Source of the DNA: Planctomycetota bacterium
GTDB taxonomy: Bacteria; Planctomycetota; Phycisphaerae; Sedimentisphaerales; UBA12454
Reading direction: 5' to 3'
DNA length: 37,033 nucleotides
Assembly (NCBI GenBank): GCA_022705345.1
Contig: JAKJEQ010000008.1
Span: forward strand, 1-37,033
The position numbers were made by a program, and so were the translations under genes. How positions within the stretch are numbered: the first letter of the stretch is position 1; the number at the start of each line of letters is the position of its first letter. Shown one piece after another: positions 5,746 to 14,636 of this stretch. The notes beneath the pieces were generated by a model. The model worked only from the letters and a program-made list of their open reading frames with translations. It was not told the DNA's origin and made no database searches.

Positions 5746-5788
5746 ACAGTTTAATCAGCCTGAGAGAATTAGATAGTATTTGGACGTT

Positions 5789-6703
5789 ATGAGTTTAAAA
5801 AGGTTACAATGTGGGCGGCTGATACTCCTTCTATTGAGTACCGTGTTTGCAGTCTGTTCATTTGGCGCACCGTTTAACGGCAATTTCGAATTATACGATT
5901 ATAATGAGTCTACATATAGAAACGATCCGAACGGCTGGTACACGGAAAATGAGGTTACAGTTGTGCAAAATGTTAATCCTCTTCCAAGCCAGGGTTCGAA
6001 AGAGAACTGGATCATAAACTTAAATACCGGTCTTTTCCCTTTTAAAGGCGAATCATGTTTATTGCTTAGCAGCGGCGACTCAGATTTAGATTATGGATTA
6101 GCTTCTCAAAACATATCAATCGAGGAAGGCGACAAACTTACAGGCGCGTATTTTTTCGGAGCATGCGATTACAACCCTTTTATTGACTGGGCGGGAATAA
6201 AACTTGTGCCGATAGCAGATTCAAATCTTGAGGAAATAGTAGTAGTCTATGAAGATATTCAATTAATAGGAACATACGGCTCGTTTGGGGGGTGGAAGAC
6301 GTTCAATCGGTTTTTTACCGCTGATGAAGTTGGAGATTATAATCTTGTGATTACAGTAAATGATTACCAGGATAATTATCTTGAGACTTATCTTGCTGTA
6401 GATTCGATTATGTTATGCAAACAGCAGGATGAAACTGTTCCACCGGAAAAGGGAGACTTTAACTGCGATTGTAAGGTAAATTTCGAGGATTATACGATTT
6501 ATGCCAACGATTGGATGTACGACTGCAATAATGCAATAATGTATGAGATTTTTTATGAGTATCCATATCGAACATCGTATGTTTATGACCCGAATTGCAA
6601 TTGCCTTTTGGGCACAGACATAACTCTGGATGGGCCTGTGGACGTTTGTGATTTGAAAGTGTTTTCTGAAAACTGGCTTGAAGGAATAAAAGAAGAAGAA
6701 TAG
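5789..6703 (+). CDS. Secreted protein with C-terminal dockerin-like repeats (paralogue 1)
   Basis: Starts with a signal peptide (Arg/Lys, then LILLLLSTVFAVCSFGA, cleavage near residue 27) and the mature sequence NGNFELYDY. The middle part, about residues 30-210, looks like a beta-sandwich (GDKLTGAYFFGACDYNPF, LVITVNDYQDNY, YLAVDSIMLC). The C-terminus carries two Ca-loop-like repeats, GDFNCDCKVNFEDYTIYANDW and LDGPVDVCDLKVFSENWLEG, resembling type I dockerin repeats as used by Phycisphaerae secreted proteins. No cohesin is visible. ATG 5789 is preferred over the upstream TTG at 5780. It is clearly paralogous to the next gene, so the pair arose by tandem duplication. Binding target unknown. Confidence 0.8.
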   Translation: MSLKRLQCGRLILLLLSTVFAVCSFGAPFNGNFELYDYNESTYRNDPNGWYTENEVTVVQNVNPLPSQGSKENWIINLNTGLFPFKGESCLLLSSGDSDLDYGLASQNISIEEGDKLTGAYFFGACDYNPFIDWAGIKLVPIADSNLEEIVVVYEDIQLIGTYGSFGGWKTFNRFFTADEVGDYNLVITVNDYQDNYLETYLAVDSIMLCKQQDETVPPEKGDFNCDCKVNFEDYTIYANDWMYDCNNAIMYEIFYEYPYRTSYVYDPNCNCLLGTDITLDGPVDVCDLKVFSENWLEGIKEEE

Positions 6704-6705
6704 TG

Positions 6706-6923
6706 CTTAAATCAAACTGACGATTTTGATAATGATACTTCTATAACTCATTATTCAATAAATGATAACACACTTTATAATTTATAGTTTGAGATTGCTT
6801 CCCCCGCCTGCGCGGGGGTAAACTTCCTGGCAATGACAAAAATGACGTTTGTATGTCATTGCGAGGCTGTCCGCAGACAGCCGTGGCAATCTCAACCTCT
6901 GAATCGGTCAGTTTGAGACTTAA
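6706..6923. repeat. Nested inverted-repeat element between the dockerin paralogues
   Basis: Several complementary arms are nested. Outer ends: CTTAAATCAAACTGAC at 6706-6721 against GTCAGTTTGAGACTTAA at 6907-6923 (two-base indel). Middle: GAGATTGC at 6791-6798 against GCAATCTC at 6886-6893. Inner: TGGCAATGACA at 6828-6838 against TGTCATTGCGAGG near 6854-6866. Each half also holds its own small hairpin: CCCCCGC/GCGGGGG at about 6801-6818 and GGCTGT/ACAGCC near 6865-6882. It has the look of a REP- or MITE-like palindromic unit; no coding capacity was found. Confidence 0.55.
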
Positions 6924-6968
6924 ATTATTTTATTATTCTTATTTATTTTTGAAAAATAAAAAATCAGA

Positions 6969-7862
6969 ATGAGTTTTGATCATTTACAAAGCTGGAGAAT
7001 CATCATTATTCTATTTGGCATTTTGTCTATAAGCCAGGCGGCCATTGAGCCAAACAACGGCAATTTCGAATTAGGTGATTTAGATGAAGTACTCAATATA
7101 AACTTTCCGGCAGGCTGGTTTCATGACGCGAATTACGCATCCGTAGTCACCCATTTTACACCTCCAAGCGGTCAAAGATGGAAAAAAACGGACGACCTTT
7201 TGCCGTTCGAGGGTAATTCTTTTGTTTTGCTCAGTACCGGTTCTGAAGATGCTTCAATACCAGATTCCAACTATGTGCATATCTGGCAAAATATTACAGT
7301 TGCTCAAGGCGATAAACTTACAGGGGTGTTTTATTTCGGGACAACCGATTATATAGTATCCGGATATTTTAATGACTGGGCAGAGATAAAAATAGTCCAT
7401 TCTAATGATCCTAATCTTAACAGAATGATACAAGAAGTTTCAATAGAAGAAGTGGGCAGCCATAGTTCAATGAGCGGATGGAAAAAATTCGAACATATTT
7501 TTGAGGCAAACGAAACAGGAACCTATACGCTTGTAATCCGTGTGAGTGATTATAAGGATTCGATGCTGCCGAGCTATTTGGCAGTCGACAGTATGGTATT
7601 GTGCCGTAATCCATCCGGGGCGGGCGATTTTAACGCAGATTGCATTGTAAACTTCGAGGATTTCGCCTTTTTCGCTGCTGACTGGCTGTTTAACTGTAAA
7701 GACCCGGCAATTCATGATGATCCGATAGCCGATGCCAATTATTATAACGACATTTACAGCAACTGTCTTCTTGGTACGGATCTGGACGACAGCGGGCCTG
7801 TTGATTTTAATGACATAAGGATTTTGTCTGACGGGTGGCTAGAAGGCATAAAAGAAGAATAA
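6969..7862 (+). CDS. Secreted protein with C-terminal dockerin-like repeats (paralogue 2)
   Basis: A 297-residue protein with a signal peptide (IIIILFGILSISQAA, cleavage near residue 25) followed by PNNGNFELGD, the same opening as paralogue 1. Shared landmarks include F(K/E)G(E/N)S, the GDKLTG..(Y/F)FG..DY segment, NDWAEIKIV, GWKKFEHIF, YLAVDSMVLC and the closing WLEGIKEE. The two Ca-loop-like repeats are GDFNADCIVNFEDFAFFAADW and DDSGPVDFNDIRILSDGWLEG. It is exported and probably attached to or displayed at the cell surface. The ATG at 6969 has no clear Shine-Dalgarno sequence. Function beyond the repeat type is not recognised. Confidence 0.8.
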   Translation: MSFDHLQSWRIIIILFGILSISQAAIEPNNGNFELGDLDEVLNINFPAGWFHDANYASVVTHFTPPSGQRWKKTDDLLPFEGNSFVLLSTGSEDASIPDSNYVHIWQNITVAQGDKLTGVFYFGTTDYIVSGYFNDWAEIKIVHSNDPNLNRMIQEVSIEEVGSHSSMSGWKKFEHIFEANETGTYTLVIRVSDYKDSMLPSYLAVDSMVLCRNPSGAGDFNADCIVNFEDFAFFAADWLFNCKDPAIHDDPIADANYYNDIYSNCLLGTDLDDSGPVDFNDIRILSDGWLEGIKEE

Positions 7863-12547: not shown

Positions 12548-14485
12548 TTATTTATCTTTCGCTTCGAATTCAGCGTCAATTACGTCATCGCCGCCATTTT
12601 TGCGGTGAACCTTGCCTTCGTCGGCTGGTTTTGCGCCTTCTGGAGAAGGTTGAGCGCCGCCGGCAGCCTGTTGTTTTTTGGCAGCTTCTTCATAAAGAAC
12701 TTTGCCAAGTTCCTGAGCTGTTGTGCTGAGATTTTCCATAGCTTTCTTTATAGCATCGCCATCTTCGCCTTTTACAGCTTCTTTGAGATTATTTACAGCA
12801 TTCTCAATTTTGCCGCGGGTGTCGGCCGAAACTTTTTCGCCGTGCTCTTTAAGAGTTTTTTCAGTGGAATAAATAAGCTGGTCAGCCTGGTTCTTAAGGT
12901 CGATAACTTCACGGCGTTTTTTATCTTCAGCGGCATGAGCTTCGGCATCCTGCTGCATCTTTTTTACTTCTTCGTCACTGAGGCCCGAGCTTGATTTAAT
13001 CTGAATCGATTGCTGTTTGCCAGTTCCGAGGTCTTTTGCGGAAACGTTCAATATACCGTTGGCGTCTATATCAAATGCGACTTCAATCTGCGGCATTCCG
13101 CGCGGAGCAGGAGGAATATCTGAAAGCTGGAATCTGCCAAGCGTTCTGTTATCACGTGCGAACTCACGCTCGCCCTGCAATACGTGAATATCAACCGTCG
13201 TTTGATTATCGGCAGCGGTCGAGAATACTTCCTTTTTACTTGTCGGAATTGTGGTGTTGCGTTCGATGAGCTTTGTCATAACTCCGCCGAGAGTTTCAAC
13301 GCCAAGTGAAAGCGGAGTAACATCCAAAAGCAGAATATCCTTTACGCCGGCATCGCCCGCGAGCACAGCACCCTGAACAGCGGCGCCAATCGCGACAACT
13401 TCGTCGGGATTAAGGCTCTTGTTCGGTTCTTTCTTGAACAAGTCGCGCACGATCTGCTGAACTTTCGGGATTCTTGTGGAACCGCCGACAAGCAGAACTT
13501 CAGCTATTTCCGAAGGATTCATCTTTGCATCGCTCATTGCCTTAACGCAGGGATTTTTTAGTCTTTCGAAGACCGGCTCGGCAAGAGATTCGAATTTGCT
13601 GCGTGTAATTGTAATCTGCAGATGTTTCGGGCCTGATGCATCTGCTGTTATAAACGGCAGATTCACTGTGGATTCAACCTGGTTCGACAGTTCGCATTTT
13701 GCTTTTTCGGCAGCTTCTTTCAATCTTTGATGAGCCATCGGGTCCTTGCGGAGGTCGATGCCCTCTGTTTTCTTGAATTCATCGGCGAGATAATTGATTA
13801 AAACTTCGTCAAGATCATCGCCGCCAAGGTGCGTATCGCCATTGGTGCTTAAAACTTCAAAAACATTATCACCGATATCGAGAATAGAAATATCGAAAGT
13901 GCCGCCGCCGAAATCGAAAACGGCGACTTTTTCGTTCTTTTTCTTTTCTACACCGTAAGCAAGGGCCGCGGCGGTCGGCTCATTTATAATTCTATCGACT
14001 TTCAAACCAGCGATAGTGCCAGCATCTTTTGTGGCCTGGCGCTGAGCATCGTTAAAATATGCGGGCACAGTGATGACCGCCCTTTCAATCTTTTCGCCGA
14101 GATAATCTTCCGCGGTTTTCTTTAAATCCTGCAGAATCATCGCAGAAACTTCCGGCGGAGTGTATTCCTTGCCTCGGACGTTCACTTTTACCAGCTCGTT
14201 TGCGCCGCCAACGACTTTGTATGGAACCATTTTTTCTTCTGTACCGACTTCATCGTGACGCCGGCCCATAAACCTTTTTATCGAAAAAACAGTGTTTTCA
14301 GGATTGGTAACCTGCTGATGACGTGCAATCTGGCCGACAAGCCTTTCTCCTTTATCTGTAAAACCTACTACAGAAGGAGTCAGTCTGCTGCCGGAAGAGT
14401 TGATGAGCACCTTCGGAGAGGCGCCTTCCATCACAGCAACCACTGAATTCGTTGTTCCTAAATCTATTCCTATTATTTTTGCCAT
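12548..14485 (-). CDS. dnaK: Chaperone protein DnaK (Hsp70)
   Basis: ATP-dependent Hsp70 chaperone of the cytoplasm, full length at 645 residues. The nucleotide-binding domain shows [18 protein letters not shown] at the start, [48 protein letters not shown] and [14 protein letters not shown]. The linker and substrate domain follow ([19 protein letters not shown]), then the helical lid and an acidic tail near the C-terminus with DVIDAEFE before a final AKDK. AAGGAGA sits 8 bases before the ATG. No dnaJ or grpE is adjacent. No CIRCE element lies upstream; instead a -24/-12 type promoter is found about 50 bases ahead of the gene. Confidence 0.98.
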
Positions 14486-14533
14486 AATATCTTTCTCCTT
14501 ATGACCATAAACATTGAATCAAAACGTATAAAG

Positions 14534-14549
14534 TGCAAACTATGTGCCA
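14534..14549 (-). promoter_or_regulatory. Sigma-54-type (-24/-12) promoter of dnaK
   Basis: On the minus strand the sequence reads TGGCACATAGTTTGCA. It matches the RpoN consensus TGGCACG-N4-TTGCA at every position but one, with exactly the required 12-base GG-to-GC spacing. Transcription would start near 14524, about 39 bases ahead of the dnaK ATG. Confidence 0.65.
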
Positions 14550-14611
14550 GTGAGGAGTAATTACGTAAGTCGTTTTAAATCAAAGGCTTATAAATTTAGA
14601 AAAGTTATAAA

Positions 14612-14636
14612 AATAATGCCATTTTGGCAGATTATT
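14612..14636 (-). promoter_or_regulatory. Dyad upstream of the dnaK -24/-12 promoter (possible activator site)
   Basis: AATAATGCCA (14612-14621) and TGGCAGATTATT (14625-14636) are inverted repeats around three bases, with a two-base bulge. The centre is about 100 bases upstream of the predicted dnaK start, the usual distance for a bacterial enhancer-binding protein. The role is inferred. Confidence 0.4.

Follow-up and report, generated by a model that had tools for sequence, protein, structure and literature searches.

A sigma-54 promoter with a conserved enhancer dyad upstream of dnaK, and a predicted chaperone regulon, in Planctomycetota

Core chaperones are usually placed under derepression or under a dedicated sigma factor, and the locus described here raises the question of what controls dnaK in a bacterium in which the regulators of neither arrangement are detected. 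The locus lies in a stretch of 37,033 nucleotides, called the window throughout, which comprises positions 1 to 37,033 of contig JAKJEQ010000008.1 from the Planctomycetota assembly GCA_022705345.1 (order Sedimentisphaerales). On its minus strand, dnaK (12548..14485, ATG at 14485) encodes a 645 aa HSP70 (PF00012, E 1.3e-261), which exceeds the curated cut-offs of both TIGR02350 prok_dnaK and PRK00290. A preliminary description of this DNA had placed the gene behind a sigma-54 (RpoN) promoter with an upstream inverted repeat. That observation is confirmed, and the first description understated it: judging from sequence, a sigma-54 chaperone regulon composed of an enhancer dyad, a bending element, and an AAA+ activator is very probably the explanation of the locus.

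The -24/-12 promoter, TGGCACATAGTTTGCA, occupies positions 14534..14549 of the minus strand, with the GC of its -12 box at 14536/14535 and a predicted +1 at about 14523; it is followed by the Shine-Dalgarno sequence AAGGAGAAAG (14491..14500, minus strand), an AAGGAG-type site retained in relatives. As originally claimed, the promoter fits the RpoN consensus TGGCACG-N4-TTGCW at all but one base, the difference being an A instead of G at position 7, which alignment shows to be A or G among relatives, and it carries GG-N10-GC in the context TGGCACR-N4-TTGC. The pattern TGGCAYRNNNNTTGC has a single match in the window, namely the dnaK promoter, and exact matches to TGGCACRNNNNTTGC number five in the 2.1 Mb assembly, the dnaK promoter among them.

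That the site is real is borne out by its conservation. The genomes compared are mostly drafts, the one considered here being labeled G000, and the dnaK upstream regions of 48 genomes of the same order were parsed by script, with dinucleotide shuffles as controls. The -24/-12 bases, whose conservation among orthologues had been suggested as a check, are indeed kept: a near-consensus sigma-54 site is present upstream of dnaK in 47 of the 48 genomes (shuffle mean 0.1), and a dyad of the strict form is present in 41 (shuffle mean 0.16), so that chance is excluded. Among the aligned regions of standard spacing GGCAC and TTGC do not vary, and two more dnaK loci overlooked by the parser also have the sigma-54 site.

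An upstream enhancer of dyad type is a usual feature of sigma-54 promoters, and at dnaK such an element is present, conserved, and phased. It is the sequence TGCCAAAATGGCA (14617..14629, minus strand), which reads TGCCA-AAA-TGGCA (consensus TGCCA-N3-TGGCA); 67 bp separate it from the -24 box downstream, and its distance from the predicted +1 is about 100 bp. The inverted repeat first reported near -100 stands as far as its compact core is concerned, which is conserved, while the outer AATAAT/ATTATT arms are not. When dyad and promoter were searched together as one composite pattern, irrespective of the gene downstream, the gap between them proved periodic at about 11 bp (Rayleigh z 27, n=240 distinct composites), as expected if an activator and the polymerase need set faces of the helix.

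Between the dyad and the promoter lies a third, palindromic element that the preliminary description did not mention, TATAAGCCTTTGATTTAAAACGACTTACG (14564..14592, minus strand; consensus YRTAAN4TT-N7-AAN4TTAYR). The motif was obtained by expectation maximization on 240 dyad-promoter spacers, with a log-likelihood of 594 versus 118-133 for shuffled spacers; it is symmetric and falls into two positional classes that are 11 bp apart. The dnaK site has the highest score for this motif in the window (26.3 bits; runner-up 21.3), and in this genome its offset is -43 at dnaK, -43 at clpB, and -44 at hsp20. The known core of an IHF site is YAANNNNTT, and both consensus half-sites of the middle element fit this core in a position between enhancer and promoter, which makes an IHF/HU-type DNA-bending site the probable reading. 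A role as a heat-shock-specific site was rejected, because the motif also precedes, at comparable offsets, further apparent sigma-54 promoters in this genome, including those of an M20 peptidase gene (L033; 21.0 bits at -44) and of locus L035 (13.5 bits at -54); for this reason we regard it as a general bending site and not as the site of a heat-shock regulator. The promoter and middle element before the M20 peptidase gene (G000 L033, C133:15559) are divergent from a gene for an XylR/V4R-like activator.

In classical NtrC-type sigma-54 promoters an IHF site separates the enhancer from the promoter, and the dnaK region resembles them in its three-part layout, in a candidate activator with a Fis-type helix-turn-helix (HTH), and in a palindromic enhancer about 100 bp upstream. 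It differs from them in that its targets are the core chaperone machinery and in that its middle element is a symmetric palindrome, whereas theirs is a single asymmetric IHF box.

The module is not confined to dnaK. With the reversed pattern as control, which gave 0 matches in either set, composite matches were found in at least 44 of 59 genomes of the order and in at least 93 of 392 genomes of the phylum, these scan counts being samples and not frequencies. With few exceptions, the matches listed for the order stand before dnaK, clpB, or hsp20, and the matches sampled from the phylum precede dnaK, groES, groEL, clpB, and hsp20, again with few exceptions; in the record of Blastopirellula marina DSM 3645 the module precedes groEL. 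The members listed for the genome considered here are dnaK, clpB (promoter CGGCACATACTTTGC, dyad TGCCATTCTGGCA, gap 65), and hsp20 (dyad-promoter gap 97). A scan of 84,980 genomes, in which gene labels are based on short reference stretches, placed 60 of the 77 gene-scorable matches listed before DnaK, GroEL, GroES, Hsp20, or ClpB by BLAST, and two further listed matches were judged by eye to be Hsp20-like. The same dyad and promoter thus recur before other chaperone genes, clpB and hsp20 here and groES/groEL in relatives, and since they do, the earlier proposal of RpoN control over dnaK and stress genes gains in strength.

Some matches have other neighbors. Two related genomes of the order have the composite element before an AtpI-like gene (L083, L119). 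The module also stands before small genes at L122, L202, and L217, two of which encode stand-alone receiver-like proteins; at L122, in one genome, groES lies behind the small gene, some 490 bp beyond the promoter. Outside Planctomycetota, matches occur in Poribacteria (groESL, dnaK, hsp20), Gemmatimonadetes (clpB, hsp20), and Bacteroidia (groESL). Further matches, from Desulfobacteraceae, Myxococcota, and Nitrospirae, stand before genes other than those of chaperones, so that the dyad by itself does not signify heat shock. Similar dyads with sigma-54 promoters were seen in other regulons (L281, L351, L308, L311, L339; gene labels by eye), before methylene-THF (tetrahydrofolate)-reductase-like genes in Desulfobacteraceae and GspC-like genes in Myxococcota and others.

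The genome also has the sigma factor for which the preliminary description proposed a search: rpoN is found at G000:C111:6487-6963 (PF04552, E 1.2e-56), and HrcA and RpoH appear to be absent. HrcA (PF01628) was missing from 58 of the 59 order genomes, the present one included, the only match in the order being L273 (G008:C24), and the RpoH profile had no match above its curated cut-off in any of the 59. A dedicated sigma-32 was likewise rejected: two sigma-70-type proteins of about 264 aa, which are among the best matches to the RpoH profile, score higher with RpoS. The earlier statement that neither a CIRCE nor a sigma-32-type site accompanies dnaK holds for the window, where the best fits have 8/18 and 5/14 mismatches, respectively; in the same window CIRCE as TTAGCACTC-N9-GAGTGCTAA was not matched and a HAIR site was not evident (best fit 4/14 mismatches). 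In comparison with HrcA/CIRCE and sigma-32 heat-shock control, the target genes are identical; the difference is that neither regulator is detected and that positive control by an AAA+ activator would replace derepression or a dedicated sigma. The recurrence of one module at dnaK, clpB, hsp20, and groES/groEL points to a sigma-54 chaperone regulon, probably one for heat shock, in genomes without HrcA or sigma-32.

The mechanism that we propose would run as follows. RNA polymerase with sigma-54 would transcribe dnaK from the -24/-12 promoter at 14549-14534, while an AAA+ enhancer-binding protein, as a dimer or oligomer, would occupy the dyad TGCCA-N3-TGGCA at about -100. Bending of the DNA at the middle element, probably by a protein of the IHF/HU family, would bring the activator onto the polymerase, and the ATPase of the activator would then open the promoter. 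Control of clpB and hsp20 here, and of groES/groEL in relatives, would be exerted by the same module.

As to the protein that binds the dyad, the genome encodes five bacterial enhancer-binding proteins (bEBPs), and what had been called an unknown activator can be narrowed to a best candidate. This candidate, C88 (G000:C88:9749-11101), which we favor with some reserve as the likeliest activator of dnaK, is a single-copy NtrC-like protein whose gene adjoins that of a soluble histidine kinase. It combines a receiver (PF00072), an AAA+ domain (PF00158; GAFTGA present in G000), and a Fis-type HTH (PF02954), and its best profile hit, TIGR01818 ntrC, reaches 435.1 bits, below the cut-off of 558.6, so it is NtrC-like and not classed as NtrC. 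One strong C88-type match was found in each of 55 of the 59 order genomes, the other four being 70-91% complete; the recognition helix reads GERTLYRK without change in 48 orthologues; and C88 is the sole clear full-length bEBP orthologue common to G018 (97% complete) and G019 (99%), both of which have the dnaK element. A GAF/NifA-like bEBP (C21) was rejected as a universal activator, as it was not detected in G018, one of the subset of genomes examined for it, and autoregulation of bEBPs through the dyad was also set aside, there being no TGYCA-N3-TGRCA in the bEBP loci scanned.

The receiver of C88 varies with its genetic context. In 25 of 25 genomes with the adjacent kinase its key residues are kept, one protein having a truncated N-terminus, and in most of 19 genomes in which no adjacent kinase was found they are lost and the dnaK element is kept. 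Among the latter 19 orthologues the AAA+ and HTH domains have a mean pairwise identity of 0.68-0.71, the receiver one of 0.42. Since the loss occurs where the kinase is not found, these lineages may not rely on phosphorylation as the essential signal. Loci L393-L410 and others give the picture of a response regulator turning into a pseudo-receiver activator.

The NtrC-like profile of C88 (TIGR01818 ntrC) and its sensor-less NtrB-like kinase could also mean that the module answers another signal, such as nitrogen, growth phase, envelope stress, or oxidative stress, and that the chaperones are not chiefly heat-controlled by way of it. We consider this unlikely, because the module matches fall overwhelmingly before chaperone and ClpB/Hsp20 genes and not nitrogen genes, because in the genomes in which no kinase was found most receivers have decayed and the promoter persists, and because Rhodopirellula baltica induces the gene set of the module on heating: in a 2009 array, dnaK, clpB, groEL, and hsp20 were induced, and the named sigma-factor genes were not (PMC2754498).

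Somewhat less probable still is that the sigma-54 promoter is real and its activator is a receiver-less PspF-like protein (G000:C55:19284-20270; L129, L133), which a chaperone or protease might hold in check. This protein has an AAA+ domain and a Fis HTH, its gene lies directly upstream of ftsH, with clpB about 6 kb away on that contig, and it has close orthologues in its own family and others, which make up part of the order. However, family f4 and parts of f3, f6, and f7 have only 40-50% paralogues, and no close orthologue was found in G019, G023, G033, or G015, which are 98-99% complete; the dnaK regions of G019, G033, and G015 keep the promoter, and G023 has a composite match. The receiver-less bEBP beside ftsH was accordingly rejected as a universal activator, since a close orthologue is missing from several complete genomes in which dnaK retains the element. 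That the dyad and -24/-12 boxes are fortuitous or relics, a sigma-70-type promoter really driving dnaK, is very improbable given a promoter retained in 47/48 orthologues (0.1 expected) despite turnover of the surrounding sequence, a helically phased dyad-promoter spacing, and the same module before unrelated chaperone genes.

Several points weigh against a sigma-54 chaperone regulon activated through C88. The dnaK region of G038 (1/48) is without the promoter, groESL was not located in the present genome, and G055 (91% complete), whose dnaK element persists, yielded no C88. The C88 profile (A1) matched 392 of 392 phylum genomes, and since it matches every one of them co-occurrence is weak; the association (Fisher p 1.2e-6) was obtained at an arbitrary, clade-confounded score cut, and as a test of the activator it is not decisive. 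The identity of the activator rests on universality and HTH invariance, its binding to TGCCA-N3-TGGCA being a prediction; the sequence gives no sign of heat as the signal; and a sigma-70-type promoter may act in parallel with the sigma-54 promoter.

A wider reading, which we put forward tentatively and think rather doubtful, is that a sigma-54 heat-shock regulon is ancestral to much of Planctomycetota and is found also in some Poribacteria, Gemmatimonadota, and Bacteroidota, with one activator and one dyad. Receiver function would have been lost in part of the order, so that unfolded-protein stress would be sensed without phosphorylation, e.g., by chaperone titration.

Elsewhere in the window, positions 5780-7862 encode two neighboring paralogues that look secreted and carry dockerin-like repeats at their C-termini, a judgment made by eye only.

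A 2025 comparative study reported sigma-54 enrichment of chaperone COGs (clusters of orthologous groups) in Planctomycetota, mainly Planctomycetia, and predicted GroEL, GroES, IbpA, GrpE, DnaJ, and DnaK to be sigma-54-regulated in Planctomycetota and Bacteroidota (PMC12316311). That prediction, made from promoter matrices, concerns the same phylum and a largely shared gene set; searching its text gave no upstream activator site, and neither a middle element nor an activator for the chaperone set was seen. No description of the enhancer dyad or its activator was found in the open-access literature, subscription papers lying outside the search, and the enhancer, the middle element, the fixation at the level of orthologues, and the candidate regulator appear to be new.

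Because an exact enhancer sequence and a candidate activator are now at hand, the proposal is directly testable in cultured species such as Blastopirellula marina DSM 3645. If true, it would account for the heat shock response of R. baltica without induction of sigma-factor genes (PMC2754498), and it would extend over a large phylum whose regulation is little known. A sigma-54 switch that depends on an enhancer and stays off until its ATPase activator is engaged would then be a third mode of the heat-shock response.
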